From a virus, in IMG/VR virus record IMGVR_UViG_3300037264_000699, positions 1-27,558 of that record: 27,558 nt of DNA. One strand, given 5' to 3'. Under the pieces are notes generated by a model. That model did no database searches and had not been told where the DNA came from. It worked only from the letters and a program-made list of their open reading frames with translations. The translations under genes and the position numbers were made by a program. Below, piece after piece: positions 3,672 to 17,621 of the stretch (the stretch's first letter is position 1; each line of letters begins with the position of its first letter).

Positions 3672-5585
3672 GTGGAGCCGATTCAGATTCCTGAGGACCT
3701 TGCTGGTCTTTCGGAAACGGAACTGACTGAACTTGGCCTTGAGATCAAGGAGCGCGTCGAGGGGCTGGCCGAAGATGCCCGCACTTCCGACGAGACGCTC
3801 GCTCAGGTCGAGGGACTCATTTCCGACTTCGATCGCATCAACGACGAACTCAACACCCGAGAGGAAGCAGCCGCAACCCGGTCTGCACGCCTCGACGCCG
3901 CACTCGAACGCTTTGGTCCCGCCGATGATGGCGAGACGGAGGATGTCGAGGAAGTTGTCGCCGAAGATGCCGAGGCTGACTCGGCAGACGAGGTGACCGA
4001 CGAGGCTGCTGACGAAGGGGCCGACGACGAGACTGAGGTCGAAGTCGCCGCCGCCGCCGATGACGCTGCCGAGTTCACCACCGAGACGGAGGCCCCTGAG
4101 GTCGCCGTCGCCGAGTTCACCGCCGAGGAGGCTCCCGTTGAGGAAGCCACCGAGGAGTTCACCATCGAGGTAGAGGCCGAGGAAGCCCCTGCCGCCGAGT
4201 TCACCAGCCAGGACACGCAGTCCGACAGCACCCAGGAGGTCACCGAAGTGGCTGATTCCAATGACCGTCGTCCCACGGTCGCTCGCCTTCGTGACCGCCG
4301 CCCCGAGGCTGTCGCCCCCCGCTCTCGTCCGAGCGGTGGAGCGATCCTTGCGGCTCGCGGTATCGGTGGCAACGTGACTGAGGGTCAGACCATCGACATC
4401 TCGGCGTTGGCCAAGGCCATCACCGACAAGCGCATCGCGATGGGCAACTCGCCTTCCGGTACCTTCGACAAGATCACGGTTGCCTCGGCCACCGTGGACT
4501 TCGGTGAGGACATGGTTGGCGGCGGCGCCCAAGAGAACTTCGCCACGCTGCGTCGTCTCGGCGCCGACGATGCCCGCTATCGCTCTGAGGTGACGACAGT
4601 CGTCGCTTCGGGTGGTGTGTGTGCCCCGTTGGAGCCGAATTACGACTTCTTCCGGCTGGCCGACGCGATGAACCCCGTCGAGGGCTGCCTGCCCACCGCA
4701 GGCGCACCCCGCGGCGGTATCCGGTTCATCTCGCCGCCCGACTGGCGGGATGCGTGCCCCGGCGTCCGTGTGACGACCGAGGCTGAGGACGCTGCTGGCT
4801 ACGTCAGCCAGGGCGGCCCCACCCCCGACAAGCCCTGCGTGGCTGTCGAGTGTCCCCCCATCGAGGAGTGCCGTGTCGATGCGGTGTCGCAGTGCGTCAC
4901 CTTCGGCAACCTGAACTACCGGGTGTTCCCCGAGCAGGTTGAGGCATTCCTGGCAGACCTCGCCGTCTGCTTCGCCGAGACGAAGGAAATCTTCTACCTC
5001 GACGCCATCGATGCCGGTTCGACTCCGGTGACCTACACGGCGCCTTATGGTGCGTCCCGCGGTTTGGCTTACAGCCTCTCCGTGACGGCCGCCAACTACC
5101 GCCGTCGGCACCACATGTCGCCGAACGCCACCTTGCAGGTGCTCCTCCCCTCGTGGGCCATGGAGTTCCTCAAGATCGACATGCTCAACGATCACTCGTT
5201 GGGCCTGGCGAACTGGTGCCTCAGCGACGCCGATGTGGCTTGCTGGTTCGCCCAGAACAACCTGGATGTGTGCTTCTACTACGACTCGGCAACGGGCGCG
5301 GGACAGGCATTCAACAACACCCAGGCTGCTGGCGTCATCAACGAGTGGCCGGACACCGTTGTGGCCTACCTGTTCGCCCCTGGCACCTTCGTCCGTCTGG
5401 ACGCTGGCACCTTGGACGTGGGCCTCATTCGGGACTCCGCCCTCAACGGCACCAACGACCTCCAACTGTTCTCAGAGCAGTGGGTTCAGGTCTGCAAGGT
5501 CGGCATCGAGTCGCTTCGTCTCGAACTGACCTTGTGCCCGAACGGTACGGCTCCTGAGCCGGTTGCTCCGTTCGACTGCGACTGA
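3672..5585 (+). CDS. Major capsid protein candidate (HK97-fold) with acidic N-terminal extension
   Basis: The 637-residue product has three parts. Residues 1-80 are a helical, coiled-coil-like segment (LTELGLEIKERVEGLAED onward) typical of the scaffolding delta domain of HK97-type capsids. Residues about 85-205 are extremely Glu/Asp/Ala-rich with several EFT repeats. From about 215 a basic patch (RPTVARLRDRRP) leads into the folded part, with VEAFLADLAVCFAETKEIFY and LEVLLPSWAME-like capsid features and a late DLQLFSEQWVQVCKVG segment as in actinophage hexamer capsid proteins. The GTG start has GGAGG 8 nt upstream. No protease gene is visible nearby, so whether the delta and acidic parts are removed is unknown. 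Several Cys residues in the fold are unusual. The capsid call is by pattern and position, not by search. Confidence 0.75.
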   Translation: MEPIQIPEDLAGLSETELTELGLEIKERVEGLAEDARTSDETLAQVEGLISDFDRINDELNTREEAAATRSARLDAALERFGPADDGETEDVEEVVAEDAEADSADEVTDEAADEGADDETEVEVAAAADDAAEFTTETEAPEVAVAEFTAEEAPVEEATEEFTIEVEAEEAPAAEFTSQDTQSDSTQEVTEVADSNDRRPTVARLRDRRPEAVAPRSRPSGGAILAARGIGGNVTEGQTIDISALAKAITDKRIAMGNSPSGTFDKITVASATVDFGEDMVGGGAQENFATLRRLGADDARYRSEVTTVVASGGVCAPLEPNYDFFRLADAMNPVEGCLPTAGAPRGGIRFISPPDWRDACPGVRVTTEAEDAAGYVSQGGPTPDKPCVAVECPPIEECRVDAVSQCVTFGNLNYRVFPEQVEAFLADLAVCFAETKEIFYLDAIDAGSTPVTYTAPYGASRGLAYSLSVTAANYRRRHHMSPNATLQVLLPSWAMEFLKIDMLNDHSLGLANWCLSDADVACWFAQNNLDVCFYYDSATGAGQAFNNTQAAGVINEWPDTVVAYLFAPGTFVRLDAGTLDVGLIRDSALNGTNDLQLFSEQWVQVCKVGIESLRLELTLCPNGTAPEPVAPFDCD

Positions 5586-5612
5586 ACGTCGGACACACCG
5601 CTGATCGGCTAG

Positions 5613-5618
5613 TACGAT
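5613..5618 (+). promoter_or_regulatory. Possible -10 element before the second capsid gene
   Basis: TACGAT, a one-base variant of the TACAAT motif seen before other genes, lies 83 nt before the ATG at 5696. A transcript starting here would begin almost directly with the hairpin at 5629-5658. There is no clear -35. Confidence 0.3.
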
Positions 5619-5628
5619 CATGAAGCAG

Positions 5629-5658
5629 AGGGCCGGGTGGCTACGGCCGCCCGGCCCT
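5629..5658 (+). terminator. GC-rich hairpin between the two capsid genes
   Basis: A 13-bp stem with one G-U pair, AGGGCCGGGTGGC (5629-5641) with GCCGCCCGGCCCT (5646-5658), has a TACG tetraloop. It sits 44 nt after the major capsid stop. It can act as a partial terminator that lowers expression of the next gene relative to the major capsid protein, or as a 5' stabilising hairpin if 5613 is a promoter. Confidence 0.65.
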
Positions 5659-5695
5659 GTGTGTATAAAGACTCAAGGAGTGAGGGGATAACCGA

Positions 5696-6877
5696 ATGGG
5701 TATCGCACCAGAAACAGTTGTGGCTCCTCCGGCTACTACCCCACCGCTGCATTCACTGTTGTCGTCTGCTGTGGTCATCGATGAGCCTGCAGGCTCTCGA
5801 TGGGAGTCGGGCTTTGCTTTCCAGCCGGAGAATTGCATCGAGGCCGAAACGTGGAATGCCTGCGGCACGCCGGGCGAGATCGATTCAATCGAACTCGCGT
5901 GCGACGGCGGCACATGGGACATCACTTTCGATGGCAGCACCACCGCTCCTATCCCTTGCGGCGCTTCCGCCGGGAGCATCCAGAGTGCCCTTGAGGCGCT
6001 GCCCAACATCAACCCTGGCGATGTCGTGGTGTCTGCCGACTCGCAGTTCATCTACCTGACCTGGGGCGGTGCTTACACCGGATTGGATGTCAGTGCCCTC
6101 GTCTCGGTCAGTGACATCAGCCTGAGCAACATGGCCGGTCCTGTTGTCCTCAACTTGGTGGCACCGCTGTATGCCGCCGGGGAGAAGGTTCAGAAGAAGG
6201 AATATGACGGCGCCCAAGGTGAGGTGGACTACTGCCCCTTCATCATCGAGGTGCCCTACACCTGTAGCACCTTCGGGTTCCAGGCGGCCGACTACGAGAA
6301 GCGCGCTCGGCGCCAGTTGGAAGCCACGATGCACAAGTCGTTGGAGTACGAGTTCTGGACGGGTTCGATCAACCCGCAGAATCTTTCACTGATCAAGACT
6401 CCCAACGATGACGCCCATGTCCTCAACCCCGGCGGTGCTGCCGCCCCCATCGCCGTGAATCCTGCTGTGGCCCTTATGATGTTGGCCCAGGCGCTCTCGA
6501 ACTGCGGCTCGGGTGGTCGTGGGATGATCCACGCGACTCCGGCTGTTGTGGAGCGCTGGGTGGGCCTGGCGACGGTCCAATGCACCGACAAGTTGATCAC
6601 CACCTGCGCTCGCGGCGACATCATCGTGGACGGTTCCGGCTACCCCGGCACCGGCCCCATCGGGCAGCCGCCCCCCGGACCGAACGAGGTCTGGGTATAT
6701 GCGACCGGCATGGTCAACATTCGCATGGGCGAACCAGAGGTCTACCCCAAGGAGTTCTCTGAGGCTATCGATCGCAAAACCAATACCGTCACCTACCGGG
6801 GCGAAATCGTCGCCTCGGCCGTACACGATCTCTGTTGCTCATTCGCCGTTCTCGTTGATCTCTGCGGCACGTTCTAA
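5696..6877 (+). CDS. Second capsid-like protein (pentamer/minor capsid candidate) with inserted beta-domain
   Basis: The product is 393 residues. Residues about 64-145 resemble a beta-sandwich module common in actinobacterial and phage surface proteins: GGTWDITFDGSTTAPIP, then SIQSALEALPNI, then PGDVVV. The flanking sequence looks capsid-like, with VDYCPFIIEVPYTCSTFG, a helix ADYEKRARRQLEA, EFWTG, and a C-terminal stretch NIRMGEPEVYPKEF. Some actinophages encode separate hexamer and pentamer capsid proteins side by side, and the order here fits the pentamer role. Alternatives are a minor capsid or cement protein. The ATG at 5696 follows GAGGGG and lies behind the 5629-5658 hairpin, which would suit a low-copy vertex protein. 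Not confirmed by search. Confidence 0.6.
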   Translation: MGIAPETVVAPPATTPPLHSLLSSAVVIDEPAGSRWESGFAFQPENCIEAETWNACGTPGEIDSIELACDGGTWDITFDGSTTAPIPCGASAGSIQSALEALPNINPGDVVVSADSQFIYLTWGGAYTGLDVSALVSVSDISLSNMAGPVVLNLVAPLYAAGEKVQKKEYDGAQGEVDYCPFIIEVPYTCSTFGFQAADYEKRARRQLEATMHKSLEYEFWTGSINPQNLSLIKTPNDDAHVLNPGGAAAPIAVNPAVALMMLAQALSNCGSGGRGMIHATPAVVERWVGLATVQCTDKLITTCARGDIIVDGSGYPGTGPIGQPPPGPNEVWVYATGMVNIRMGEPEVYPKEFSEAIDRKTNTVTYRGEIVASAVHDLCCSFAVLVDLCGTF

Positions 6878-6891
6878 GAGAGGAGTAAGCC

Positions 6892-7431
6892 ATGTCAATG
6901 CAGGGCGCTCCGATCCCCGAGTGTCTCCCAAGCGCAGGAAGTAACTGCCAGCCCGTCCAGGCTGTCATCCTGTGCGACCAGCACCCGGAACCGCCTGTAG
7001 GCGATGGGCTGTGCGTTTCCTTTCTGCGCGTCTATTTCTACAACTGCGATACCGGCGCGCTCATGTCCTTCTCGGACTTCGATCTCGATGGCAACCTTTA
7101 TGTGGTCATTGGAACGGTCGAGAACTGCGAGGACAATGGATGTATTGAGTGCATCCCCGATACCTTCCATCAGCATCGTGAGCAGATCGTTGGTGTTGGC
7201 GCATGGGTGCGTCCGGTAGGGGCGTCCGCTGTGACGGTAAAATGTCGTGCAGTTGGCGATGTCTTGAATCCCCCCACCATTACAGATGCAAGCGCCGTGG
7301 TTACCCCATTGTTCGTGGGAGACGAGGAGACGTGGGAATCGCCTGACGGGACACCATTTTTGAGCGGCTTCACTGTCACGGCCAATGATCCTGGTGATCT
7401 CATCACCATTATCTGGTTGGAGACTATCTAA
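6892..7431 (+). CDS. Virion decoration/fibre-like protein with one Cys-containing repeat
   Basis: The 179-residue beta-rich protein carries VILCDQ, then FLRVYFYNCDTGALM, then FDLDGNLYVVIGTV (about residues 24-78). This is the same domain found three times each in the products at 11724 and 12824. The C-terminal half is a separate predicted beta-sandwich ending ITIIWLETI, resembling the ends of other proteins in this block. The start is clear: AGAGGAG 6 nt upstream of ATG 6892. The stop overlaps the next ATG (TAATG). Position directly after the capsid genes suggests a capsid-surface component. No enzyme motif is visible. Confidence 0.6.
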   Translation: MSMQGAPIPECLPSAGSNCQPVQAVILCDQHPEPPVGDGLCVSFLRVYFYNCDTGALMSFSDFDLDGNLYVVIGTVENCEDNGCIECIPDTFHQHREQIVGVGAWVRPVGASAVTVKCRAVGDVLNPPTITDASAVVTPLFVGDEETWESPDGTPFLSGFTVTANDPGDLITIIWLETI

Positions 7432-8108
7432 TGGCCTGTCGAGTTCGTTGTGAAACATCCCCGATTGTCGCCGAGGGCGATACCTGTATCGATGTCTCTG
7501 GTACTGGCATTTCGGGTGACCCCCTGCAGATCAGTGCCATCATCCCAGCCGGTGCCGTAGTCCCGCATCCGCTCGCTCCGGGCTTCTTGCCTGACACCAT
7601 CAATGGCCTTGCCTGCACCCTGACGGGCCTCATGGCTCCACAGCCGGGCTTCCCTGCTGGCGCCGACGGCAACCTGCCGTTCGGCTCCAACCCCGACATC
7701 ATCGCCAACACTGGCGGCCAGATTCCGTGGGGGCCGGTGCTGTCGATCAGCATGACGAACCTCAACAGCGACCGCCTGCTGCTGTTCCGCAATTTCATCC
7801 AGCACCCGTTCTGTACGATGGTGCTTGAGCCTGGGGCCGTCGGCACCATCGGTGCCATCTTCGACCCGCTCGGCCTCGCCATCTACCTGCCACTGTGGAA
7901 GGTGTCGAACAATTCTGGGGCGGCGGTCGAAACCTATGGCGCTTACCCGCAGACATTCGTTGGCGGGGGCAACGTCGTGCTGCCCGCTGCTGCAGCGCTC
8001 CTCGACGGCCAAATGTGGGTGGAGTTGTCCGGCGCCACTGGCGCCTCAAGCATTACCACCATCGGGCAGGCTGGCATGGTCCTCGGCATGTTGGGAGTAC
8101 CGATCTAA
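7431..8108 (+). CDS. Beta-rich structural protein, first copy of the CRVRC cassette
   Basis: The 225-residue protein opens with MACRVRC, followed by VAEGDTCIDVSGTG and DPLQIS. The same N-terminal plan (M-A/S-CRVRC, AEG-TC, GTG, DPL) begins the product at 8474, so the two are paralogues with conserved N-termini and divergent bodies. The body is Gly/Pro/Ala-rich and predicted beta, with repeated short hydrophobic strands and an alpha-poor C-terminus ending GMVLGMLGVPI. A shared N-terminus with variable C-terminus suits an attachment domain carrying different display domains. It is coupled by TAATG overlaps to the genes on both sides. Specific function unknown; head fibre or minor tail protein are both possible. 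Confidence 0.6.
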   Translation: MACRVRCETSPIVAEGDTCIDVSGTGISGDPLQISAIIPAGAVVPHPLAPGFLPDTINGLACTLTGLMAPQPGFPAGADGNLPFGSNPDIIANTGGQIPWGPVLSISMTNLNSDRLLLFRNFIQHPFCTMVLEPGAVGTIGAIFDPLGLAIYLPLWKVSNNSGAAVETYGAYPQTFVGGGNVVLPAAAALLDGQMWVELSGATGASSITTIGQAGMVLGMLGVPI

Positions 8109-8449
8109 TGGCTGGACGAGTAGTAACCCATACCTACTGGAAGGCTGGCAATGGCGATCCCTACAACGGGGGCCGTTTCGGCTTTGACACTGAGATCACC
8201 GAGGACGGCGATGTAGCCGCCACGGTCACCTACCGACCGGCCGGTGCCATCGACATCGCTGAGGCTGAGTATGACGCCCTAGTGGCGGCTTTCCAGGCCG
8301 AGTGGGACGCACGCGCCGTCGGCGGCCAGGAGTTCGTTGACGAGTCGGTCGCCGAGCGCGACGCCCTCCGCAACTCGGCCACTGCGAAGTTGGTTGCTGG
8401 AACCCCCCTCACGGCGGCCGAGGCGACCGCGATCACTGGCGGCTCCTGA
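8108..8449 (+). CDS. Small helical protein, first copy of the AEYDA cassette gene
   Basis: The product is 113 residues. The N-terminal half is beta-like (VVTHTYWKAGNGDPYNGG, ATVTYRPAG) and the C-terminal half is helical, with AEYDALVAAFQAEWDAR, then ATAKLVAGTPLTAAEATAI and the end TGGS. The product at 9166 has the same helical plan and the end LTGAS. ATG 8108 overlaps the preceding stop (TAATG). Pairing with the CRVRC protein in both copies suggests a dedicated chaperone or partner, similar in logic to tail-fibre assembly proteins. This role is inferred only from gene pairing. Confidence 0.6.
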   Translation: MAGRVVTHTYWKAGNGDPYNGGRFGFDTEITEDGDVAATVTYRPAGAIDIAEAEYDALVAAFQAEWDARAVGGQEFVDESVAERDALRNSATAKLVAGTPLTAAEATAITGGS

Positions 8450-8473
8450 TGACTGTCTATAGGAGGATGGCTA

Positions 8474-9169
8474 ATGTCTTGTAGGGTCCGCTGTATCCCA
8501 GGCCCCGTTCAGGCCGAAGGGTCTACTTGCTTGTCGGTGACGGGAACCGGCACGCTTGCCGACCCCCTTTTGTTCGACACCATCATCGACCCCGATCTGC
8601 CGGATGCCCTGAACGCTCTGGTATGTGGTCCTGATGGACTCTTGGCCCGCGTGGGGCAAACGCACGCGTTCAATCTCATCTTCGCTCCCCCTTTTGGTCC
8701 TGCTCCCCCTGGACCGCCGGGTCCCAACTATTACTCCTCTGGGTTGAGCACGGTTTCGATCACCAATGACGGCACCACCCCGATGGACGTTTTTGCATTG
8801 GCATATCTTCAATCGACGGTGTTCTCCCAGGGATCGTGTCAGCCAGACATCAAACACGAAATCGACTTCGGATTCGGCTTGTTCCCTGCTAATCAAGTTC
8901 TTCAAGGATTTTCGGCCGGTCCGGTGGCCCTGGACCCAGTATTTGGTGGGGATGGTTCGATCTCACCGTTCGGGACTAACGAACTACATGGTTCTGAGAA
9001 CTCGTTTAATGTCCTTCCAATCTCAACGATTCTTGGTTCTCCACTTGCTCCTGCCGCCTCCTTCTCCGTTGACCATCAAATGACCCAAAGTTACATTGGG
9101 GCATGGAACGCATCGTCAGTCGTCATTACCTTTGCGGCATTCATCCTGATGGGGGTTAGTAGGGCATGA
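8474..9169 (+). CDS. Beta-rich structural protein, second copy of the CRVRC cassette
   Basis: The 231-residue protein starts MSCRVRC with VQAEGSTCLSVTGTG and DPLLFD, matching the N-terminus of the 7431 product. It then has a short Pro/Gly stretch (FGPAPPGPPGPN) before a different beta-rich body ending ITFAAFILMGVSRA. A textbook AGGAGG (8461-8466) lies 7 nt before the ATG. Its last codons overlap the next gene (ATGA). The Pro/Gly stretch is too short to call a collagen domain. Likely a virion surface or fibre component that shares an attachment domain with its paralogue. Confidence 0.6.
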   Translation: MSCRVRCIPGPVQAEGSTCLSVTGTGTLADPLLFDTIIDPDLPDALNALVCGPDGLLARVGQTHAFNLIFAPPFGPAPPGPPGPNYYSSGLSTVSITNDGTTPMDVFALAYLQSTVFSQGSCQPDIKHEIDFGFGLFPANQVLQGFSAGPVALDPVFGGDGSISPFGTNELHGSENSFNVLPISTILGSPLAPAASFSVDHQMTQSYIGAWNASSVVITFAAFILMGVSRA

Positions 9170-9447
9170 TTACTCGTTATTACAGGCTTGTTGATGGAAC
9201 CTACGGGCAACTTGCGTCGATGTCCGCACCAGACCTCCCAGCGGGGAGCACTGAGGTGACCAAGGCGGAATATGACGCGGAGATTCAGGATCGTAATGAC
9301 ATGGTTGTCCAGAAGATTCAGGACAACGCTGACGCTGCGGCAACGGCTACTGCTACCCACCAAATTCAGGCTGCTGCCGACTACGCCGCCTTGATCGCCG
9401 CTGGCATCCCTGCCGCAACGGCCACGCGTCTAACCGGGGCTTCCTGA
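9166..9447 (+). CDS. Small helical protein, second copy of the AEYDA cassette gene
   Basis: The 93-residue protein has a short beta-like N-terminus (MITRYYRLVDGTYGQ) and a long Ala-rich helical region containing KAEYDAEIQDRNDMV and AALIAAGIPAATATRLTGAS. The KAEYDA box and the C-terminal TG-A/G-S match the 8108 product. It overlaps the upstream gene by ATGA and is followed 22 nt later by the beta-helix gene. It may be a partner or assembly factor of the 8474 protein. No catalytic motif is present. Confidence 0.6.
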   Translation: MITRYYRLVDGTYGQLASMSAPDLPAGSTEVTKAEYDAEIQDRNDMVVQKIQDNADAAATATATHQIQAAADYAALIAAGIPAATATRLTGAS

Positions 9448-9469
9448 TGACTTTCTTCCGGGGGCTGTA

Positions 9470-11122
9470 ATGCCTTGCTGCCAAGTCTCCTGCGCTACCG
9501 CAGTAGGTGAAGGCCGCCCCTATGCGACTCGCGTCGTGGCTGCCGTTGACTCAGTAGCGACCGACGCCATCAACGCCGACTTCGTGTGCGACGGCATCAA
9601 CGATGAGGTAACCATCCGCCAGGCGTTCCTTTCGCTTGTCGAGGACCTCGGTGGTGGCTCCTACCTCTACAACGGTGGCAAGGTCGTCTTGTTGGAGGGC
9701 AACTACTACTGCTCCGACACGATCGACCTCGACTTCACGGGCGAACCCTTCTCGACCATCCCACCAGCGTGGTTCACGCTTGAGGGGATGGGTTTCGGGA
9801 CCAAGTTGATCTTCACCCCGGCCCCCCTTGCATCGCACGGCATTGATGTGATCACCCCGACGCAGATCAAGGGCTTCATCCTGCGCGACCTTCGCATCTT
9901 CGACCCTGGCAACACTGGCGTCCACATGGACAACGGCCAGGTCGCTCTCATCGAGAGGGTCGCCGTCATCGGCGGTCAGTTCGGCATCGACATCGAGAAC
10001 GGGTGGATGACCGAGATCACCGATTGCTGGGTCGAGGGTGCTGCGGATACTTGCATCCGAACCGACAATCCAGCCACGATCCACGGTTGTGCCATCAACC
10101 TGAACGCCGACTTCACCACCACGGGTTACTCCGAGCGTGGCATCGAGGTCAGTGGCGTGGAGTCGATCGTGTCCAACAACCGCATCTTCCGGTCAGGCAT
10201 AATCCAGAATGAGATCGGTTGGTCCGACATCGAGATCCCGACTCGCGCCCAAATCAACGGCCCGGCGTCGAGCACCGTTCAGGCTGGCATCCGCGTGTCG
10301 AGCGCAGATCGTTCAGTGGTGGAGGGCAACATCATCTTCCAACTGCCCAACCATCGGCCCATTGACTGCGCCAGCAGCGGGGTCAACATCATCGGCAACG
10401 TCATCTTCAACTGCGATTGGGTCGCTCGCAACCTTCCAGCATCCTCGCCAGCCATCAACTGCAATGGTAGTGAATGTACGGTGGTGGGCAACTTCTTGTC
10501 CAGCCTCGGGCAGATGGGCGGCATTCTCGTCACCGGAGATGGGATCGTCTCTGACAACACTCTGGCCTCCATCAGTGGGCACGGGATCGTGCTCAATGGC
10601 AGCAGCAACGTGTGTTCAGGTAACCGCCTCGACGCCGTTGCGACGGCTGGTGCAGGTGGCGACGGCATTACAGTGAGCGGCACTCTCAATACGGTGCAGG
10701 GAAACTACGTCCTGGCCACCCGGACGACCGATGTCGGTTCCTTCGGCATCGCCGTCACCGGGTCGCGCTGCGTCATCAGCGGCAACATCGTTGAGCGCAC
10801 CGAACGTGAGGCCATCTACGTCACCGGGGCCGACAACTTGGTTGAGGGCAACTCAACCTCCCAGATCGCAGCGACTCACATCGCCGTTCCTGCTGGGGCC
10901 GGAACACGCAATCACATCGCCCACAACAAGGCCAACTTCGTTGCTGCTGGTCCTGGTGCGGTGAACGCCCCGAGGGCCTTCCTCACGGGTGTGCTCACCC
11001 AGGTCGTCGTTGGCAACGACGCTACCAACGGTCCGTGGGCAGTTGACGCGACGGGGTACAACCTCATCGTCGGCACCATCGACACCTTTGCTGGCGGCGC
11101 CGGACCGGGCGACAACTTCTAG
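9470..11122 (+). CDS. Right-handed parallel beta-helix protein (tailspike/head-spike-like)
   Basis: The 550-residue product begins MPCCQVSC, a Cys-rich start like its upstream neighbours. Residues about 20-55 (VATDAINADFVCDGINDEVTI) are the usual opening of phage beta-helix proteins. From about 120 to 480 it shows short repeated coils such as GIDIENGWMTEITDCWVEG, VVEGNIIF, VVGNFLSS, VSDNTL and VISGNIVERTE, with stacked Asn and Val ladders typical of pectate-lyase-like solenoids. Such proteins often bind or cleave surface polysaccharide, but catalytic residues cannot be named from sequence alone. The start has only a weak G-rich site upstream. Because it lies between capsid and tail-tube genes it may be a head-mounted spike. 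Confidence 0.75.
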   Translation: MPCCQVSCATAVGEGRPYATRVVAAVDSVATDAINADFVCDGINDEVTIRQAFLSLVEDLGGGSYLYNGGKVVLLEGNYYCSDTIDLDFTGEPFSTIPPAWFTLEGMGFGTKLIFTPAPLASHGIDVITPTQIKGFILRDLRIFDPGNTGVHMDNGQVALIERVAVIGGQFGIDIENGWMTEITDCWVEGAADTCIRTDNPATIHGCAINLNADFTTTGYSERGIEVSGVESIVSNNRIFRSGIIQNEIGWSDIEIPTRAQINGPASSTVQAGIRVSSADRSVVEGNIIFQLPNHRPIDCASSGVNIIGNVIFNCDWVARNLPASSPAINCNGSECTVVGNFLSSLGQMGGILVTGDGIVSDNTLASISGHGIVLNGSSNVCSGNRLDAVATAGAGGDGITVSGTLNTVQGNYVLATRTTDVGSFGIAVTGSRCVISGNIVERTEREAIYVTGADNLVEGNSTSQIAATHIAVPAGAGTRNHIAHNKANFVAAGPGAVNAPRAFLTGVLTQVVVGNDATNGPWAVDATGYNLIVGTIDTFAGGAGPGDNF

Positions 11123-11130
11123 GAGGGGTG

Positions 11131-11349
11131 ATGGCTGCTATCGGTGATCAGTTCAAGCACAAGGCCCTCTGGGACTCTGAGACAGACGACTTCTGCGTCT
11201 GCGAGATCACCGAGGTTGGGCCAGAGCACGTCATCTTTGCCACCCCGGCCGGGGTGGAGTCGCGACTTCCCCTGAACGCCGATCCTGACACCACCTGGAC
11301 CGGATTTGATGCCGAAGTTGTCCATGAATGGGTAGTGGGGCCGAACTGA
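11131..11349 (+). CDS. Small hypothetical protein after the beta-helix gene
   Basis: The 72-residue acidic protein is predicted to be a small beta-barrel or SH3-like fold (GDQFKHKALWDSETDDFCVC, then VIFATPAGVESRLPL). The ATG at 11131 is chosen with AGGAGG (11121-11126) upstream; a GTG at 11128 directly precedes it and is too close to that site. Its stop overlaps the next ATG (TGATG). I do not recognise the family. Position suggests an accessory to the beta-helix protein. Confidence 0.6.
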   Translation: MAAIGDQFKHKALWDSETDDFCVCEITEVGPEHVIFATPAGVESRLPLNADPDTTWTGFDAEVVHEWVVGPN

Positions 11350-11711
11350 TGGACCACGTTGCCCTCGCACTCTGCGTCTCCAAGGCGATCGAGACTGCCT
11401 CTGTCGGTACGGCCACGGAGTCGAACGCCCAGCAGGCAGCCCTTGCCACCCAGGCTGATTGGGATTCGATCTCTCACGACGACATCGACCCCGCAGTTGC
11501 GGTCGCCTACGTCGATGCTGCAATGGCGGGGCAATTGGCCTGCCATCAAGCGCGCCGCGCCTGGATCGATGACTATGACCAGAATCCGGCGGCCGCCCTC
11601 GCAGAGCACCCCGAAGCCTGGACCCCCGAGGAGGGTGAGCCGGAGTGGCTCGATGTCCTCATTTCTGCGTTCATCAACCGCCCAACCACCGCTCAAGTGC
11701 TCGGATTGTGA
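11349..11711 (+). CDS. Hypothetical helical protein
   Basis: The 120-residue product is Ala-rich and helical throughout (MDHVALALCVSKAIETASVG, then AVAVAYVDAAMAGQLACHQA), with an acidic Pro/Glu segment near residue 90 (WTPEEGEPEWL). It is translationally coupled to the preceding gene through TGATG. No domain is recognised. Helical small proteins alternate with beta-rich ones throughout this block, so it could be a partner protein, but this is only analogy. Confidence 0.55.
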   Translation: MDHVALALCVSKAIETASVGTATESNAQQAALATQADWDSISHDDIDPAVAVAYVDAAMAGQLACHQARRAWIDDYDQNPAAALAEHPEAWTPEEGEPEWLDVLISAFINRPTTAQVLGL

Positions 11712-11723
11712 GAGGATAGGTAC

Positions 11724-12821
11724 ATGGCTGGCGCACCGATCCTGCAAGGGGACTGTCGAGACTGCCCGGAGGCGACGACTTCGATCGCCACCACGGGCCT
11801 ATGTCTAGACGACGCGACCCCAATCGCGATCGTTGTCACGCGCGACTGCAACGGCGTTGTCACCGAGGATGGCTGGCTCGACCTGACCACGGGCATCTTC
11901 ACCCCTGGTCCCCCTCCTCCCGGCACGGCTGCCTGCACCACCGACAACTACGACTTCGCTCTCTCGGGCTGGCTCTGTGACATCTTGCCGGACGGCTCGG
12001 TCGCTGGGATCGCCTTGGTTCAGATCGAGCGCAACGCATCCGGTGCTGTCATCGGCATCACGCTGATCGGCGTTGATGGCCTGCCCTACGTTCCCGTCGG
12101 CATCATGACGCGCTGCCCCGAGGACCGCTTGGCTGCCGAAGTCCTCTGCGACGCTGGCGCTGCTGGCATCCCCTTCGTCCGCTTCTACACCTACAGCCCC
12201 GTTGGTTCGATCCCCGCTCGCGACACCGATCTCGACGGCGCCCCCTATGTCGTCGTCGGCCCGGTCGTTCGCTGCATCGAGGAGGTCACCGGCACTGGTG
12301 GCGATCCCGTTGTGGTCGATGTCAACAACTGGCGCGACGACGCCGAGTACGTCGTGCTCTGCGACCAGGGAACGGCCGACGCCCCGTTTGTGCGGCGCTT
12401 CGACGTTTCCGACACAGGTGTGGTCACCGCCACCGACACCGAACTCGATGGCACCACTGCTTACTTTGCGGTCGGCCCGGTTGGCGTCTGCGCCCTCGAC
12501 CTTGGGTCCATTCAGGTTGTCGCTGACCCGGATGCCAATGTGCGCGCTGGCATGGTGCTGCTATCGGGGGTTGGCGATTCATGGACGCTTGGAGTTGATT
12601 CTGGCGGCGGCAAGGTCAAGTCGATCACTATTGTGCGGCGCGCTGGCGGAACCGCCGCGTCGGTCACCGTCGCGGATGACTTCGGCAACGTGACTGCCGT
12701 GATCTCAGGCGAGTCGCTGACATGGGGCGTTAGCGCCCTGGAAGATGAGATCACGGGTACGTTTGTGGTCGCGACCACCAACGCCGGGGACCGCGTGCTC
12801 GTTCTTTGGACTGAGGTGTAG
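11724..12821 (+). CDS. Multi-repeat virion surface protein (three Cys-containing repeats)
   Basis: The product is 365 residues. After a Cys-rich N-terminus (DCRDCPE) and a Pro linker (GPPPPG), three related units follow: WLCD to VGIMTRC, EVLCD to VGPVVRC, and VVLCD to VGPVGVC. Each has the plan LCD, aromatic strand, Asp/Val turn, LDG or VDG, then Y-VG-V-C. The last 100 residues form a different beta-sandwich (SWTLGVDSGGG to VLVLWTEV) resembling the end of the 6892 product. The ATG follows GAGAGGA. Paired Cys at the edges of each unit could form disulfides or bind metal. Probably a decoration or fibre protein; no enzyme motif. Confidence 0.65.
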   Translation: MAGAPILQGDCRDCPEATTSIATTGLCLDDATPIAIVVTRDCNGVVTEDGWLDLTTGIFTPGPPPPGTAACTTDNYDFALSGWLCDILPDGSVAGIALVQIERNASGAVIGITLIGVDGLPYVPVGIMTRCPEDRLAAEVLCDAGAAGIPFVRFYTYSPVGSIPARDTDLDGAPYVVVGPVVRCIEEVTGTGGDPVVVDVNNWRDDAEYVVLCDQGTADAPFVRRFDVSDTGVVTATDTELDGTTAYFAVGPVGVCALDLGSIQVVADPDANVRAGMVLLSGVGDSWTLGVDSGGGKVKSITIVRRAGGTAASVTVADDFGNVTAVISGESLTWGVSALEDEITGTFVVATTNAGDRVLVLWTEV

Positions 12822-12823
12822 TC

Positions 12824-13744
12824 ATGGCTGGTACTGGTGCTCAGAACTCCAACCCAACCGAGCCAGTAGAACTTGCCGAGCCGGTCACCATCGACGGGAC
12901 CGTCGATGTCGGCAACCCGTGCTCCGACATCGAGCAGGTTCTCCTCACCGACGAGGGCACCGATCCCGACACCGACTTCCTCCGTACCTACGAGTACGAC
13001 TGCGACGGCGACATCGTTGGGTTCACCGACACGCTGCTCGACGGCTCGACCGGCTACGCTCCCGTCGGCCCGATCGTGGTCACCGTGCAGGCCGCGGCCA
13101 CTCGGGACATCGAGCAGGAGGTCCTGTGCGACGACCAGGGTGGCGGCACGATTGTCCCGTTCGTTCGCCGCTACCGCTACAACCCGAACGGGACCTTCCA
13201 GGGCTTCCTGAACTTGACCCTCGCTGGTGCCCCTTACGTCCCGCTGGGCACGGTCATCAGGTGCGTTGATGTCGCCGTCATCGAGAGCGACTGCGCTGAT
13301 GTCGAGTTCCTCGACCTGATCGACTGCACCCAGACGGCGTTCCTGCGGCGCATCGACCATGCGTGCGACGGAACCGTCACGGTCGTTGATACCGAACTCG
13401 ACGGCACGACGCTATATGTCGCCTGTGACCCGGTGCGTTTCGCTTCTGAGGGTGCGCTGCAATCCGGTGCGGGTGGTCCAGCCATCGTCACTCGCGTCAC
13501 GAGTCTTGCGAACTACACGACTTCCGTTACGACTCGCCGGGTGACGCTCATCTGGACCGGCAACGCTGCGTCTATCGGCAACCGGGTGGCGTTGCAGATC
13601 AACGCCGGTGCGTTCGTCGCTCTCGTGAACGAGGCTGGCCTCATCATCTTCGGCGATCTCGCCTCACCCGATCAGATGGGCTACACGATCACCATTGACG
13701 TGAATCAGGCGGCCGACGACGTGACTGTGATCGAGGAGTTCTGA
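12824..13744 (+). CDS. Multi-repeat virion surface protein, paralogue of the upstream gene
   Basis: The 306-residue protein has three units of the same Cys-containing repeat. They run from DIEQVLLTD to YAPVGPIVV, from DIEQEVLCD to YVPLGTVIRC, and from DVEFLDLID to YVACDPV. Some edge Cys positions are lost in the first and third units. The C-terminal domain ends DDVTVIEEF, matching the DIVIVEEF end of the next product, so a terminal domain has been shared. ATG 12824 lies just after the upstream stop with GAGGTG as ribosome-binding site, and its own stop overlaps the following ATG. Best described as a repeat-built capsid or tail surface protein. Confidence 0.65.
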   Translation: MAGTGAQNSNPTEPVELAEPVTIDGTVDVGNPCSDIEQVLLTDEGTDPDTDFLRTYEYDCDGDIVGFTDTLLDGSTGYAPVGPIVVTVQAAATRDIEQEVLCDDQGGGTIVPFVRRYRYNPNGTFQGFLNLTLAGAPYVPLGTVIRCVDVAVIESDCADVEFLDLIDCTQTAFLRRIDHACDGTVTVVDTELDGTTLYVACDPVRFASEGALQSGAGGPAIVTRVTSLANYTTSVTTRRVTLIWTGNAASIGNRVALQINAGAFVALVNEAGLIIFGDLASPDQMGYTITIDVNQAADDVTVIEEF

Positions 13745-14046
13745 TGCCACTAGGCCCGTACCCCGCAGAGAATCCAGAGCCGCGTCCCGATCCGATCGTC
13801 GTCGCGCTCATCGGCAACGGGTTTACGCACGACACCAGCCCCCTCGCCCGCAAGGTTTCTATCTACGTTCATGCTCCCATCGAGGGGGCTGAGCGCGCTC
13901 GTCCGACCGTGAACGGGGCTGCCATCCGTGGAGCGAATAGTGGCACCCCCTACATCTTCGAGGCACCTGCTGGATTCACGGTGCCCGTGCTCATCATCGC
14001 GACCAGGGCGGGCAACAACGACATCGTGATCGTGGAGGAGTTCTGA
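13744..14046 (+). CDS. Small beta-sandwich protein sharing a C-terminal domain with its neighbour
   Basis: The 100-residue product has a Pro-rich start (MPLGPYPAENPEPRPDP) and a single beta-rich domain ending NNDIVIVEEF, close to the end of the 12824 product (VTVIEEF). It appears to be a stand-alone version of that terminal domain. ATG overlaps the previous stop (TGATG). It may be a small decoration protein or an assembly partner. No Cys is present, unlike most of its neighbours. Confidence 0.6.
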   Translation: MPLGPYPAENPEPRPDPIVVALIGNGFTHDTSPLARKVSIYVHAPIEGAERARPTVNGAAIRGANSGTPYIFEAPAGFTVPVLIIATRAGNNDIVIVEEF

Positions 14047-14047
14047 G

Positions 14048-14512
14048 ATGGATGACGAGATTCTCTCTCTGGATCGCTCCTACTTCCGGGTGATGGCGCG
14101 TAACAATGGCACGTTGCAGATCACGGCCATCGCCGCGACGATCGACCACGGCGACGAGAGCGACATCACTGATTTCGTTGAGTCGCAGATGAACAACCCG
14201 GCCGTTGCCCCTATCTTGCAGGGCGGAGAGATGCGTTGGGAGTCCAACGGAATCATCGCTTTGCTGCTGACCGACTCGGCTGACGTGAAGCAGGTCCTCA
14301 TGCGGGACTTCCTGTTCATGGCGATGCTGTCGGGCCGCTTCCGTCCCACCGAGGGCACGCAGAAGTTGATGTGGGCCGACGCCGCCACAGGCGTGCAGCC
14401 CACTTTCCCCCCGGTCCCCGAGGACTGGTGGGTTGAGTTGGATGCCGGAACCGCTCCTGCTGGCCCTGCTGGCTATGCGGCGTGGTACGCGGCATGGGTG
14501 GCGGCTCAGTAG
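14048..14512 (+). CDS. Hypothetical structural-region protein
   Basis: The 154-residue product starts after GGAGGAG inside the end of the preceding gene. Residues 1-75 are mixed alpha/beta; 75-110 are hydrophobic and helical (IIALLLTDSADVKQVL, then LFMAMLSG) but too interrupted for a clear membrane span. The C-terminus is Pro/Trp/Ala-rich, ending AGYAAWYAAWVAAQ. No family is recognised. It is the last gene of the decoration block, 44 nt before the first tail-tube gene. Confidence 0.6.
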   Translation: MDDEILSLDRSYFRVMARNNGTLQITAIAATIDHGDESDITDFVESQMNNPAVAPILQGGEMRWESNGIIALLLTDSADVKQVLMRDFLFMAMLSGRFRPTEGTQKLMWADAATGVQPTFPPVPEDWWVELDAGTAPAGPAGYAAWYAAWVAAQ

Positions 14513-14556
14513 TTCCAAGGCGCCTCGTGCGCCCCTCAACGTGGGATACTTGAGCC

Positions 14557-15342
14557 GTGGCCATTTGTTGTCCGAAGTCCATCAAGGCATGTGCCCTTCG
14601 TATTACGCGCCTGAATGGATCGGACGTTCCTCTCGACCCCCTGACTCCAAACAGCCGAATCCAGACGGCGGGGTTCATGGAGTTGAACCTCTCCCCCGAC
14701 ATCATCACGGGAGAAGTCACCGACATCGCCACTACGTGTGGCGACATCTGCATCTCGCACAACGACTGCGACAAGGTGAGGGGATTCGACATCGAGTTGA
14801 AGTTGTGCGGCGTCCCTCTACCCGTCCTAGAGATGTTGACCGGCATCACTTTGATGGACGACGGCATGGGCAACTTCGTGGGGGCGGCCCTACGTGAAGG
14901 CAAGAGCAACCGCTGCAGCAACGATCCGAAGATGATCGAACTGTGGACCAAGAACGCGGATCGCCCATCTTGTGACATCGATGGAGTCCCTGGCAGCCTA
15001 TGGATTCACTGGATTCTCCCCAGGACCATCAAGTGGGAAATCAGTGGAAGCATCAACTTCAACTCGGGGCCACTTGAGTTCGCCCTCTCGGCTTACGCTG
15101 AGAACAACCCCAACTTCTACCCGTCGTGGCCTGGGCTTACCTTTCCGTCCTATGTGCCGGGCGGTGGTGACCCAACCGGACTCCCCACTGGCGCTCCCCC
15201 TCCGGTCCTTCCGGCTGGCATCACGGCCGACCCCTGGACCATCACGGATCAAGTGGTCATCCAGGGAGCCGGTCCCCTGGCTTGGAAGTGCGTGGACAGC
15301 CTTCCTTCCCCCATCGATGACTGTGGATATGTGCCGGTATGA
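14557..15342 (+). CDS. Major tail (tube) protein paralogue 1
   Basis: The 261-residue protein begins with GTG and MAICCPKSIKACALRITRL. It contains MELNLSPDI, then LKLCGVPLPVLEMLTG, then PRTIKWEISGSINF and a C-terminal PSYVPGGGDPTGLPTG linker and PSPIDDCGYVPV end. This pattern is that of actinophage tail-tube subunits. It is collinear with the product at 16161 over its whole length. The Shine-Dalgarno match is poor (GGGA 10 nt upstream), while GATACT (14545-14550) ends 7 nt before the GTG, allowing a leaderless start. One of the two paralogues probably forms the main tube and the other a minor or specialised ring. Confidence 0.8.
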   Translation: MAICCPKSIKACALRITRLNGSDVPLDPLTPNSRIQTAGFMELNLSPDIITGEVTDIATTCGDICISHNDCDKVRGFDIELKLCGVPLPVLEMLTGITLMDDGMGNFVGAALREGKSNRCSNDPKMIELWTKNADRPSCDIDGVPGSLWIHWILPRTIKWEISGSINFNSGPLEFALSAYAENNPNFYPSWPGLTFPSYVPGGGDPTGLPTGAPPPVLPAGITADPWTITDQVVIQGAGPLAWKCVDSLPSPIDDCGYVPV

Positions 15343-15379
15343 CTTGTGGGACTATCGTCCCGGTAACGCCAGCCACCCC

Positions 15380-15385
15380 TAGAAT
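15380..15385 (+). promoter_or_regulatory. Possible -10 element (TAGAAT)
   Basis: TAGAAT lies in the gap between 15342 and 15425, 45 nt before the chosen GTG start. There is no convincing -35. A short 5-bp hairpin (15348-15361) just upstream could close the preceding gene. Confidence 0.3.
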
Positions 15386-15424
15386 CTGTCCTGTAATCCT
15401 TAATCTCTGACGATGGAGACACGC

Positions 15425-15679
15425 GTGAAGAAGAAGTTGTTGGTGGCCTCCTTGAGTGACCAAGGGGCCGGGAAGGTGAAGATCGTCCTCGGAAATCGCA
15501 CGGGTCACCCTGAGGACTATTACATCTTGGGCGTGACGCCCAGGGTGACTATTGGCCTCGATGGGAACACCACCTATGCAGTAACCCTCGATGTCGCTCT
15601 CGACGCGACTATTGTGGAGGTACGCCAGGGAGGACGAGACGGTGAAGTCCTGGCCTTATTGGAACTAGAGCATCGGTAG
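15425..15679 (+). CDS. Small hypothetical protein between the tail-tube paralogues
   Basis: The 84-residue product is predicted beta-rich: KKKLLVASLSDQ, VKIVLGNRTG, TTYAVTLDVALDATIVEV and a charged end. GTG 15425 is preferred because GGAG (15415-15418) lies 6 nt upstream. The in-frame ATG at 15413 has no ribosome-binding site and would add four residues. No family is recognised. It ends 5 nt before the next gene, so the two are probably expressed together. Confidence 0.55.
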   Translation: MKKKLLVASLSDQGAGKVKIVLGNRTGHPEDYYILGVTPRVTIGLDGNTTYAVTLDVALDATIVEVRQGGRDGEVLALLELEHR

Positions 15680-15684
15680 GGACC

Positions 15685-16095
15685 ATGAGCAACAAGCCGA
15701 GCGGACGATTCAGCAACTACCCCAAGGTGAACCGTGGGGTTTCTTCGGATGAGCCGAAGGAAGTGGTCGTTCGCGCCCCAGAGCCGGAGGAAGTGGTCGA
15801 TACGGCCCCAGAGCCGGAGGAAGTGGTCGCTCCCACCCCAGAGCCGGAGGAAGTGGCAGACGACGGAGAGTCCACTGAGACTGCTGAATCTGTCGAGGAC
15901 GAGGGGGCTTCGGATGAAGCCGCCGAAGATGTCGCCGAGGCTGCCTTCATTGGCGCTGACGACATTTCCGAGATGACGGCCAAGGAAGTCTTGGATTGGG
16001 TCGGCGACGACCTGAGCCGTCGCGAGTACGCCTTGGCTACCGAAAGTTCTGGCCGGGAGCGCAAGACCCTACTGTCGCGGTTGGCAGAGGGATAA
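15685..16095 (+). CDS. Acidic repeat protein with C-terminal helical domain
   Basis: The product is 136 residues. The N-terminus is basic (SNKPSGRFSNYPKVNRG). The middle (25-90) is highly acidic and contains three PEPEEVV/PEPEEVA repeats encoded by 30-bp direct repeats. The last 40 residues (MTAKEVLDWVGDDLSRREYA to TLLSRLAEG) form a helical domain seen at the C-terminus of small phage proteins encoded near capsid genes, where it is often linked to head-tail connection. Here it lies between the tail-tube genes. The disordered acidic linker resembles the acidic part of the capsid protein. Role not established. Confidence 0.6.
   Translation: MSNKPSGRFSNYPKVNRGVSSDEPKEVVVRAPEPEEVVDTAPEPEEVVAPTPEPEEVADDGESTETAESVEDEGASDEAAEDVAEAAFIGADDISEMTAKEVLDWVGDDLSRREYALATESSGRERKTLLSRLAEG
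15751..15859 (+). repeat. 30-bp in-frame tandem repeat
   Basis: Units starting at 15781, 15811 and 15841 share GAGCCGGAGGAAGTGG, preceded by a degenerate unit at 15751 (GAGCCGAAGGAAGTGG). The 30-nt period keeps the reading frame and gives the PEPEEVV repeats of the acidic protein. It looks like recent slippage or unequal recombination. Confidence 0.85.
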
Positions 16096-16119
16096 ACACA
16101 CCACCATCAGTCTTTGACA

Positions 16120-16125
16120 TACAAT
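16120..16125 (+). promoter_or_regulatory. TACAAT promoter-like element before tail-tube gene 2
   Basis: TACAAT is preceded directly by TTGACA, too close to act as a -35. It starts 41 nt before the ATG at 16161. The same hexamer occurs at similar distance before the genes at 17681, 18256 and 20865. Confidence 0.45.
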
Positions 16126-16160
16126 GACGGTGATCGGTCAAGCCTAGGAGGCAAAACCAC

Positions 16161-16958
16161 ATGGCAATCTGCTGCCCCAAGTCCATCAAGGCGTGTGCCA
16201 TGCGGATCACGCGCCAGAACGAGTGCGACATCGCTCTCGATCCATTGGTTCCCAATAGCCGCATCCAGAGCGCAGGCTTCATGGAGTTGAACCTCTCCCC
16301 GGACGTTGAGTCCGGCGAGGACATCACCACCAAGAACGGCTGCGGCGACATCTGCATCCGTGACAAGGACTGCGACCGCCTCAAGGGCTTCGAGGTCGAA
16401 CTCAAGTTGTGCGGCGTTCCGCTCACCGTCATCGAGATGCTGACGGGCGCAACCCTCCTATCGGACGGAGACGGTGGCTTCAATGGCGCCGTCATGCGTG
16501 AGTCCAAGGACGCAGCCTGCGAATACTCGAAGGCGTTGGAGTTCTGGTCCAAGAACGCCGACAAGGGTGCTTGCACCGTGGACGGCCTCGTAGAGAACCT
16601 CTACATCCATTGGGTGCTTCCTCGCACGATCAATTGGGAGTTCAGTGGTGGCCTCAACTTCACCAATGGCCCCCTTGAGATCGTCCTGATGGGCTACGCG
16701 GAGAACAACCCCCTGTGGTTCCCCTCGTACCCCGATGGCACCTTCCCGTCCTACGTCCCTGGTGGCGGCGATCCCACCGGCCTCCCGACGGGTCCGGCTC
16801 CGGGCAACCCGAACCCGAACCTGCCACCTGGGATCACGGCCGATCCTTGGAACGGAACCGATCAGGCTGCGATCCAGGCGGGCGGTCCGATGGCCTGGCG
16901 TTGTGTGGGTTCCCTCCCGTCGCCCATTGATGACTGCGGCTACGTGCCCGTCGTCTAG
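16161..16958 (+). CDS. Major tail (tube) protein paralogue 2
   Basis: The 265-residue product is collinear with the 14557 product. It shares MAICCPKSIKACA, NSRIQSAGFMELNLSPD, LKLCGVPLTVIEMLTGA, PSYVPGGGDPTGLPTG and the DDCGYVPV end. AGGAGG (16146-16151) and a TACAAT element upstream, plus a very strong terminator downstream, suggest that this is the highly expressed tube subunit. Conserved Cys residues (CC at 4-5, GCGDIC, DKDC) are shared with the paralogue and may form stabilising disulfides or metal sites. Tail-tube assignment rests on family pattern and on proximity to chaperone and tape-measure genes. Confidence 0.85.
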   Translation: MAICCPKSIKACAMRITRQNECDIALDPLVPNSRIQSAGFMELNLSPDVESGEDITTKNGCGDICIRDKDCDRLKGFEVELKLCGVPLTVIEMLTGATLLSDGDGGFNGAVMRESKDAACEYSKALEFWSKNADKGACTVDGLVENLYIHWVLPRTINWEFSGGLNFTNGPLEIVLMGYAENNPLWFPSYPDGTFPSYVPGGGDPTGLPTGPAPGNPNPNLPPGITADPWNGTDQAAIQAGGPMAWRCVGSLPSPIDDCGYVPVV

Positions 16959-16985
16959 GCGACTCCCACCTCTGACCGATCAGAC

Positions 16986-17015
16986 GGACCCCCCGCCCTT
17001 CCCGGCGGGGGGTCC
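16986..17015 (+). terminator. Strong hairpin terminator after tail-tube gene 2
   Basis: GGACCCCCCGCC (16986-16997) pairs perfectly with GGCGGGGGGTCC (17004-17015) around a 6-nt loop, 27 nt after the stop. It is followed by TTCGCGTCCCC rather than a U-run. It separates the tail-tube transcript from the HNH gene. Confidence 0.8.
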
Positions 17016-17050
17016 TTCGCGTCCCCTATTGATTGCAGAAGGTCGGCGTC

Positions 17051-17569
17051 ATGGCTTTGGTATACGATCATCCGATGGATCGGGTGCTGCTTCTCAACGC
17101 AACCTATGAACCAATCTGCGCGGTGCCGATGCGGCGCGCCGTCGTTCTCGTGCTCTGCGACAAGGCCGAGATCGTCACGGCATACGATGCCGTGGTTCGT
17201 TCGGCGAGCATGGAGATGTCGCGCCCGGCCGTCATTCGCCTGGTCCGCTACGTCAACGTCCCCCGGTTCCGCAAGGCATACCTGAGCCGCCGCACCATCC
17301 TGCAGCGGGACAACCACGAGTGCTGCTATTGCGGTGGCAAGGCATCCACGATGGACCACATCATGCCTCGAAGCCGTGGCGGCGCCCACTCATGGACCAA
17401 CGTCGTGGCTTGCTGCTTCGGCTGCAACCAGACCAAGGACGACAAGACCCCTCAAGAGATGGACTGGAAGATGCGGTACCAGCCATTCGAGCCTGAGGGC
17501 AATCGTCGCATCGTCTTGATCGTCGGCTGTCTCGACCCTACGTGGGAAGAATGGATGGCCGTAGCCTAA
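17051..17569 (+). CDS. HNH endonuclease
   Basis: The 172-residue protein has the usual actinobacterial HNH plan. An N-terminal domain reads VLLLNATYEPICAVPMRRAV. Then comes a zinc knuckle CCYC (91-94), the catalytic DHIMPRSRGG segment (Asp102-His103), a central Asn in SWTNVV, and the second knuckle CCFGCNQTKD. All HNH and zinc positions are present, so activity is likely. ATG 17051 follows AGAAGG; an upstream TTG reading is not needed. The gene sits alone between two strong hairpins (16986-17015 and 17592-17621), like a mobile or homing insertion in the tail operon, though a packaging role is also known for phage HNH proteins. Confidence 0.88.
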   Translation: MALVYDHPMDRVLLLNATYEPICAVPMRRAVVLVLCDKAEIVTAYDAVVRSASMEMSRPAVIRLVRYVNVPRFRKAYLSRRTILQRDNHECCYCGGKASTMDHIMPRSRGGAHSWTNVVACCFGCNQTKDDKTPQEMDWKMRYQPFEPEGNRRIVLIVGCLDPTWEEWMAVA

Positions 17570-17591
17570 GAGGACCGCTTCGCAAGGCGCC

Positions 17592-17621
17592 TAGGGGCCA
17601 CTCCTTCGGGGGTGGCCCCTA
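17592..17621 (+). terminator. Hairpin terminator after HNH gene
   Basis: TAGGGGCCACTCC (17592-17604) pairs with GGGGTGGCCCCTA (17609-17621), 13 bp with one wobble, around a stable TTCG tetraloop. TTATGTG follows. It lies 22 nt after the HNH stop. Confidence 0.8.

Follow-up and report, generated by a model that had tools for sequence, protein, structure and literature searches.

The viral contig analysed here (IMG/VR record IMGVR_UViG_3300037264_000699), of which the complete 27,558 bases are referred to as the window, carries two tandem two-gene cassettes in the interval between its capsid and major tail genes. In each of them a protein with the leader CRVRC, which we read as fibre-like, is followed by a small partner of what is called here the AEYDA family. 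An earlier inspection of the sequence (the original prediction) had claimed just such a duplicated order, CRVRC protein and then AEYDA protein, at 7431/8108 and 8474/9166, and the gene coordinates agree with it. The cassettes consist of the following parts:

7431-8108, plus strand: fibre-like protein of cassette A, 225 residues (MACRVRC leader and one GTGxxDP repeat at 7431-7637, body at 7638-8105)
8108-8449, plus strand: partner of cassette A, 113 residues, AEYDA family, with a long N-terminal beta domain
8444-8458, plus strand: junction of 15 nucleotides at the end of cassette A, with a copy also at the end of cassette B
8474-9169, plus strand: fibre-like protein of cassette B, 231 residues (MSCRVRC leader and one repeat at 8474-8647, body at 8648-9166)
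9166-9447, plus strand: partner of cassette B, 93 residues, AEYDA family, with a shorter N-terminal domain
9442-9456, plus strand: junction of 15 nucleotides at the end of cassette B, the same as in cassette A

A duplicated cassette with a shared N-terminal repeat

In both cassettes the start of the partner gene overlaps the stop of the fibre-like gene (TAATG and ATGA, respectively), and the junction TCCTGATGACTKTCT surrounds the stop of both partner genes. No further copy of it exists in the window at up to two mismatches, and its first 14 nucleotides are absent from other loci, the four loci listed for them being pieces of the window. The junction pattern was picked only after being seen. 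Among 351 gene pairs the two partner genes are the most similar in the 10 nucleotides after the stop (8/10). The two CRVRC proteins are 43% identical over 69 columns (expectation value, E, 1e-13) with the first 58-69 residues in common, as had been predicted, and the match is far longer than the few initial residues to which a failed prediction would have been confined. An all-against-all BLASTP of the 30 window proteins finds this N-terminus in no other protein. At the DNA level it gives no significant blastn match, and the duplication is therefore old; we can conclude that the cassettes arose by tandem duplication long ago and that their ends have been conserved and their middle has changed. 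The window is alone among the contigs compared in having two copies.

The N-terminus common to both proteins corresponds to a single copy of a GTGxxDP repeat of about 42 residues (residues 17-70 in A and 17-59 in B). A profile of this repeat, iterated from seven seed segments that include A and B, whose own scores are hence partly by construction, matches 17 of the 1381 open reading frames of the window and 38 loci (L numbers below) and none in one shuffle of each, with non-seed proteins matching in 10 further loci. A single copy is present in both window proteins, in L014, in L016 and in TP1604 gp25, and two to four copies are present in the proteins of L043-L047, Mischief19 gp34, phiSAJS1 gp32, Xkcd426 gp31 and gp32, YDN12 gp26, Tonitrus gp49 and the RHEph12 tail fibre. 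In the Streptomyces phages Mischief19, phiSAJS1, Xkcd426, TP1604 and YDN12 and in Rhodococcus phage Tonitrus the repeat proteins are encoded between the minor tail genes and the lysis genes, and the one of Rhizobium phage RHEph12 is annotated 'putative tail fiber protein'. In all five of the loci L043-L047, furthermore, the gene shortly upstream of the repeat protein matches phrog_837 'minor tail protein', and these proteins are therefore called tail-side. In a test against PHROG families, TP1604 gp25 and Xkcd426 gp31 match phrog_863 'tail fiber assembly', and Tonitrus gp49 and the repeat proteins of L045 and L046 have no match. Mischief19 gp34 matches 16 records, 13 of them only over its first 34-89 residues, which is the pattern of a conserved start with different bodies in cultured phages.

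Assignment of the cassettes as a fibre module is supported by this homology, as far as sequence comparison goes. A leader of the form C[RKQ][VIT][RS] near the start is likewise found in seven proteins of the block that by our own reading are fibre-like (window 7431, 8474 and 9470; L014 2137 and 3203; L016 2255 and 3324) and in three other open reading frames of the 1381, 20 shuffled sets giving a mean of 1.9 and a maximum of 5; this pattern too was chosen post hoc. Direct searches with the CRVRC proteins gave no named-phage match at E <= 1 and no confirmed match in viral contigs, and relatives were reached through the capsid and major tail proteins. None of the four cassette proteins matches a family below E 0.009, the best PHROG values of 0.014 (partner A) and 0.0099 and 0.035 (partner B) being left unused, as was a Pfam match at 0.053, far under the cut-off. 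The original prediction is partly supported as a whole; its attachment and display part is supported by the repeat homology, the CRVRC proteins themselves matching no family.

Differing bodies and their AEYDA partners

Downstream of the repeat the two proteins do differ as predicted, with 22% identity (32/143) between bodies A and B in a multiple alignment. Shuffle tests, in which Pro/Gly-rich stretches may inflate scores, were made on 66 pairs with 500 shuffles; they clearly relate body A to the bodies of L014, L016 and L027 (0/500 shuffles each), and body B is not significantly similar to the bodies of L014 (103/500) and L027 (272/500). With 4000 shuffles body B may be related to the body of L016 (7/4000 shuffles as high), and there is a faint, collinear similarity between bodies A and B (36/4000). 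Scores of body B against two profiles were equalled by 11 and 59 of 1000 shuffles. Judged by these alignments, bodies A and B are probably homologous and have diverged very far, and an origin as unrelated swaps is less likely. The model of body A is beta-rich and of low confidence (predicted local distance difference test, pLDDT, 44), and the beta-rich nature predicted for the CRVRC proteins is seen in this model of body A only. Its weak matches, mostly to jelly-roll virus capsids and carbohydrate-binding modules (template modelling score about 0.3 or less among the matches listed), were discounted.

The cassettes differ in composition as well. The guanine plus cytosine content of third codon positions (GC3) is 0.82 in body A and 0.54 in body B (Fisher 8.4e-8; 5.2e-5 at fourfold sites) and 0.75 and 0.59 in the partners (0.017), and the N-termini, with 0.62 and 0.66, are alike (0.85); within cassette B the GC3 of N-terminus and body is not significantly different (0.17). 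No part of the contig has a lower GC3 than body B, the minimum of 433 overlapping windows in other genes being 0.61, and it is therefore plausible, albeit not proved, that the middle of cassette B was replaced from a less GC-rich source. The cassettes may instead be plain old paralogues that drifted apart without their middle ever having been exchanged, for which the faint collinear homology of the bodies and the lack of a significant DNA match in the shared N-terminus can be adduced; the account is possible if somewhat doubtful, since it does not readily explain why body B and partner B differ from their counterparts in GC3 when the N-termini do not, nor why 0/433 windows are as low as body B. 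The predicted swapping of the bodies is only partly supported, with the GC3 contrast in its favour and the probable distant homology of the bodies against it. The cassettes had furthermore been called diversifying, which exceeds the evidence, for although cassette B has a middle part of different sequence and different composition, a reverse transcriptase (PF00078) was found in none of six records, namely this contig and five related ones, which may be fragments. Ordinary duplication with divergence or recombination is therefore all that is indicated.

The partners are related over part of their length. BLASTP aligns only the PAG..AEYDA segment of partners A and B (E 5e-4), and a full-length local alignment, whose score is reached by 0/2000 shuffles, joins the C-termini as well, these being weaker when taken alone (26/2000); the N-terminal domains show no similarity (447/2000). 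Partner A is 54% identical to the partner in L014 and 43% identical to the one in L016. An AEYDA profile seeded with the partners of window A, window B, L014 and L016 has eight members, the non-seeds being L027, L043, L044 and L045, and its lowest member, window B, scores 33.5 bits, the highest score among 6905 shuffled sequences being 16.1. The model of partner A (pLDDT 87) has strands within residues 4-50 and helices at 52-97 and 103-110, and the predicted helical character is by this model about right. In L027 the body is devoid of the repeat, yet body and shortened partner are kept, and the proteins preceding the AEYDA gene in L043-L045 are likewise repeat-less; the AEYDA partner thus travels with the body and not with the N-terminal repeat.

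AEYDA-like segments also occur as fusions, at the front of phiSAJS1 gp33 (0/2000 shuffles) and Mischief19 gp35 (1/2000), which are phrog_11699 minor tail proteins directly after the repeat protein, and joined to another small domain in L006, L011 and L016 (0, 3 and 0 of 2000 shuffles). Mischief19 gp35 contains a K1-lyase C-terminal domain, and it has a beta-helix match slightly below the Pfam cut-off; its annotated start (L049 4607-4709) is probably 34 codons late, as the upstream in-frame stretch resembles the start of phiSAJS1 gp33. Both kinds of fusion, and the order of repeat protein, AEYDA-B and beta-helix protein in the window, would fit an AEYDA protein that is not a folding factor but remains in the particle as a structural adaptor, for example as a collar or by linking the fibre to a neighbour such as the beta-helix protein at 9470. 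Such a role is nonetheless unlikely in our estimate, given that each of the eight members of the AEYDA profile (8/8) has a gene of its own, directly following that of a larger protein, and that partners A and B vary most outside the AEYDA core and the C-terminus, as expected for a client-binding domain from what is described of such a protein (PMC9608196).

Genomic surroundings and distribution of the cassette

The last gene of the record runs past its end, and the contig is therefore a fragment. The genes that frame the cassettes, which belong to a block of poorly known proteins at 6892-14512, are the following:

818-2512: TROVE (Ro60-like) protein, adjoining the capsid genes
3672-5585, plus strand: major capsid (hexamer) protein (phrog_777, 3.7e-82; actinophage matches)
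5696-6877, plus strand: second head-side gene, conceivably for a pentamer protein (phrog_779, function unknown)
6892-7431, plus strand: repeat protein (phrog_18824, E 1.9e-6), directly upstream of cassette A and overlapping its start
9470-11122, plus strand: right-handed beta-helix-type protein, 550 residues (Pfam NosD, 2.2e-7, above cut-off)
14557-15342, plus strand: major tail protein 1 (phrog_792, 2.9e-20), far border of the block
16161-16958, plus strand: major tail protein 2 (phrog_792, 2.5e-26), 65% identical to major tail protein 1
18256: head-tail adaptor (phrog_783)
19638: tail completion protein (phrog_5)
20865: long last gene, 2231 residues, putative tape measure from its size and place

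The protein at 9470 is encoded by the next gene after cassette B and has a similar cysteine leader (MPCCQVSC); the beta-helix fold is common in adhesins. The closest named-phage relatives of the capsid protein are from actinobacterial phages, Arthrobacter phage Mimi being the top one with 36% identity across 71% of the protein length. In Mimi and DSL-LC01 a relative of the second head-side gene, annotated as hypothetical, has tail or adaptor genes at most one gene further on and no comparable block behind it, and in the Streptomyces phages Mischief19 and Xkcd426 hypothetical proteins are present at the position of the block.

A number of further observations concern these surroundings. The proteins at 6892-7431, 11724-12821 and 12824-13744 are related mutually and to phrog_18824, and the one at 11724 has relatives in Mischief19, Xkcd426 and Saccharomonospora phage PIS 136. 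A second major tail protein gene in the same genome is also seen in L010, L011 and L013, and between the major tail and head-tail adaptor genes of the window lie an HNH endonuclease (17033-17569) and a weak SprT-like match below cut-off (17681-18235). Several structural proteins at 3672-19628 are rich in cysteine, with 17 residues (6.1%) in the 18256 protein, 15 (8.4%) in the 19089 protein and 11 and 12 in the tail proteins, and the count is zero in the 2231-residue last gene product and in both AEYDA partners. L006 encodes a TROVE/Ro60-like relative with 66% identity to the 818-2512 protein, and its head-tail adaptor homologue (17488-19344) contains a long in-frame insertion which, by eye, we take to be intein-like.

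The search for further copies in relatives, which had been suggested as a check of the original prediction, covered 14 related contigs that include the second head-side gene, complete or in part, the major tail gene and all that lies between them (L006, L011, L014, L016, L017, L018, L019, L021, L022, L023, L024, L025, L027 and L028), some of which may be near copies of one virus. A homologous body followed at once by an A-type partner is found in three of them (L014, L016 and L027), as one copy each and in the same place. The cassette is absent from the other 11 and hence dispensable; in nine contigs the interval is only about 1.5 kb. Searches of whole records gave a repeat or body match in 9/25 and a partner match in 6/25, and in Mischief19 there is a weak partner match near the far genome end; profile scans with partner and body found nothing beyond the L014 and L016 contigs, and a profile of the major tail protein gave no confirmed match in genome contigs. 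After the cassette, L014 3203-5593 and L016 3324-4469 encode many AIIAGxxNxI-like repeats that are beta-roll-like by eye, each with a small downstream gene.

Dispensability, together with the location of the genes between the capsid and major tail genes, would also befit a decoration of the capsid or tail tube with a stabilising role and no receptor binding, and actinophage capsid decoration proteins without known relatives do exist (PMC7150772). We nevertheless regard it as decidedly unlikely that the CRVRC proteins are of this kind, as their N-terminal repeat is found elsewhere in proteins in tail-fibre position and as the neighbour at 9470 is a beta-helix protein.

One record, G007, carries both a head-side arrangement of repeat, body and partner (L016) and a tail-side locus (L045), the latter with a minor tail protein, behind it a repeat protein, and next a second protein that is accompanied by an AEYDA partner of its own. 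This partner-bearing tail-side protein is weakly similar to the L016 body of the same record (16/4000 shuffles) and shows no similarity to body A or to the bodies of L014 and L027 (192, 655 and 3340 of 4000, respectively). It might be imagined that the same exchangeable chassis of docking repeat, body and body-matched AEYDA partner is used at head-side and tail-side sites of one phage group, which we consider rather improbable; should the products of both sites be part of the particle, related adhesins would be exposed on its head and its tail, and an exchange of bodies from one site to the other could take place.

A proposed modular fibre with a matched partner

With a probability of roughly 0.55, the product of each cassette is a short fibre or adhesin of the virion together with a small partner of its own, that is, a modular fibre with a matched partner, and attachment plus display seems the likeliest reading of the sequence. 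The first 60 residues or so, comprising the cysteine leader and one GTGxxDP repeat, would form a common docking or stalk element, and the C-terminal body would be the exposed part, which changes rapidly. The AEYDA partner would be translated immediately after the fibre, in coupling with it, and serve as its matched assembly factor, with a variable N-terminal beta domain that contacts the body and a helix that trimerises, as for Pam3 gp25. The two-gene unit would have been duplicated to give the two tandem copies of the window, after which the ends were kept and the middle, i.e. the fibre body and the N-domain and helix of the partner, diverged or was replaced. Chaperone action of the partner is plausible by analogy, and the paired chaperone of the original prediction is borne out in gene order, gene overlap and the layout of a beta domain plus helix, but not in any family or fold match.

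Several points weigh against this interpretation. The presence of either protein in the virion is something we infer, the block sits in the head-to-tail interval and not at the tail tip, and the low confidence of the body A model leaves a fibre body unsupported by structure. The model of partner A likewise has no Foldseek match at E <= 0.001 and no VIA-align match above Z 3.4 in the PDB and viral models, and 0/9 records, the window included, match Caudo_TAP (PF02413) or DUF4376 (PF14301) at E <= 1. The difference in GC3 between the partners is marginal at fourfold sites (0.064). Furthermore, in L043-L045 the AEYDA gene follows a repeat-less protein without PHROG match and the repeat protein is followed by a different small protein, in L046 and L047 an AEYDA gene was not found, and no separate small AEYDA gene is present behind the six named-phage repeat proteins examined. 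The fused AEYDA-like segments, finally, would be just as natural in a structural component.

Which cells a phage is able to bind depends on modular fibres and their partners. Having the docking repeat and the partner family beside capsid genes and on the tail side in related genomes, and in tandem in the window, offers a natural set for tests of body-partner matching, and the set also bears on whether head-side genes aid attachment in actinophage-type viruses. The cassette is not described in the literature titles and abstract openings surveyed, which does not show it to be unpublished, and virion proteomics was not found by text terms in the portion of PMC11536984 covered by them.

Among known systems the modular fibre with a matched partner has its closest parallels in the fibre-chaperone modules (Pam3 gp24/gp25, V22 gp26/gp27, A5 gp8/gp9 and Mu Tfa), in which, as in the cassettes, a small partner gene stands directly after the fibre gene. 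This arrangement, typical of Tfa-type chaperones, is found in both cassettes and in L014, L016 and L027, where the upstream proteins are putative fibres. Pam3 gp25 is described as having a variable N-terminal beta-sandwich (residues 1-55), by which it binds the fibre, and a helical C-terminal part, which is conserved and mediates trimerisation (PMC9608196), and the Alteromonas phages A5 and V22 exemplify a fibre and chaperone common to distant phages (PMC10579305). The likeness of partner A, as modelled, to Pam3 gp25 as there described is one of layout only, in having a beta domain and a helix, and unlike these modules the cassettes are without a Caudo_TAP or DUF4376 match, are tandem-duplicated and lie in the capsid-to-major-tail interval. 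Mischief19 gp34, phiSAJS1 gp32, TP1604 gp25, Xkcd426 gp31 and Tonitrus gp49 share with the CRVRC proteins an N-terminal cysteine leader and repeat and a variable body, but the named-phage repeat proteins are encoded near lysis genes, have mostly more than one repeat and other bodies, and no separate AEYDA gene was found with them. Capsid fibres that bind flagella in phage 7-7-1 (PMC12796354) and the capsid decoration gp17 of Rosebush, whose role is given as unknown (PMC7150772), both as reported, are likened to the cassettes by description and not by sequence; the cassette genes too are near capsid genes, and head display is possible. The cassette is therefore ordinary in kind, as a modular phage fibre with partner, and unusual in its place and its duplication.

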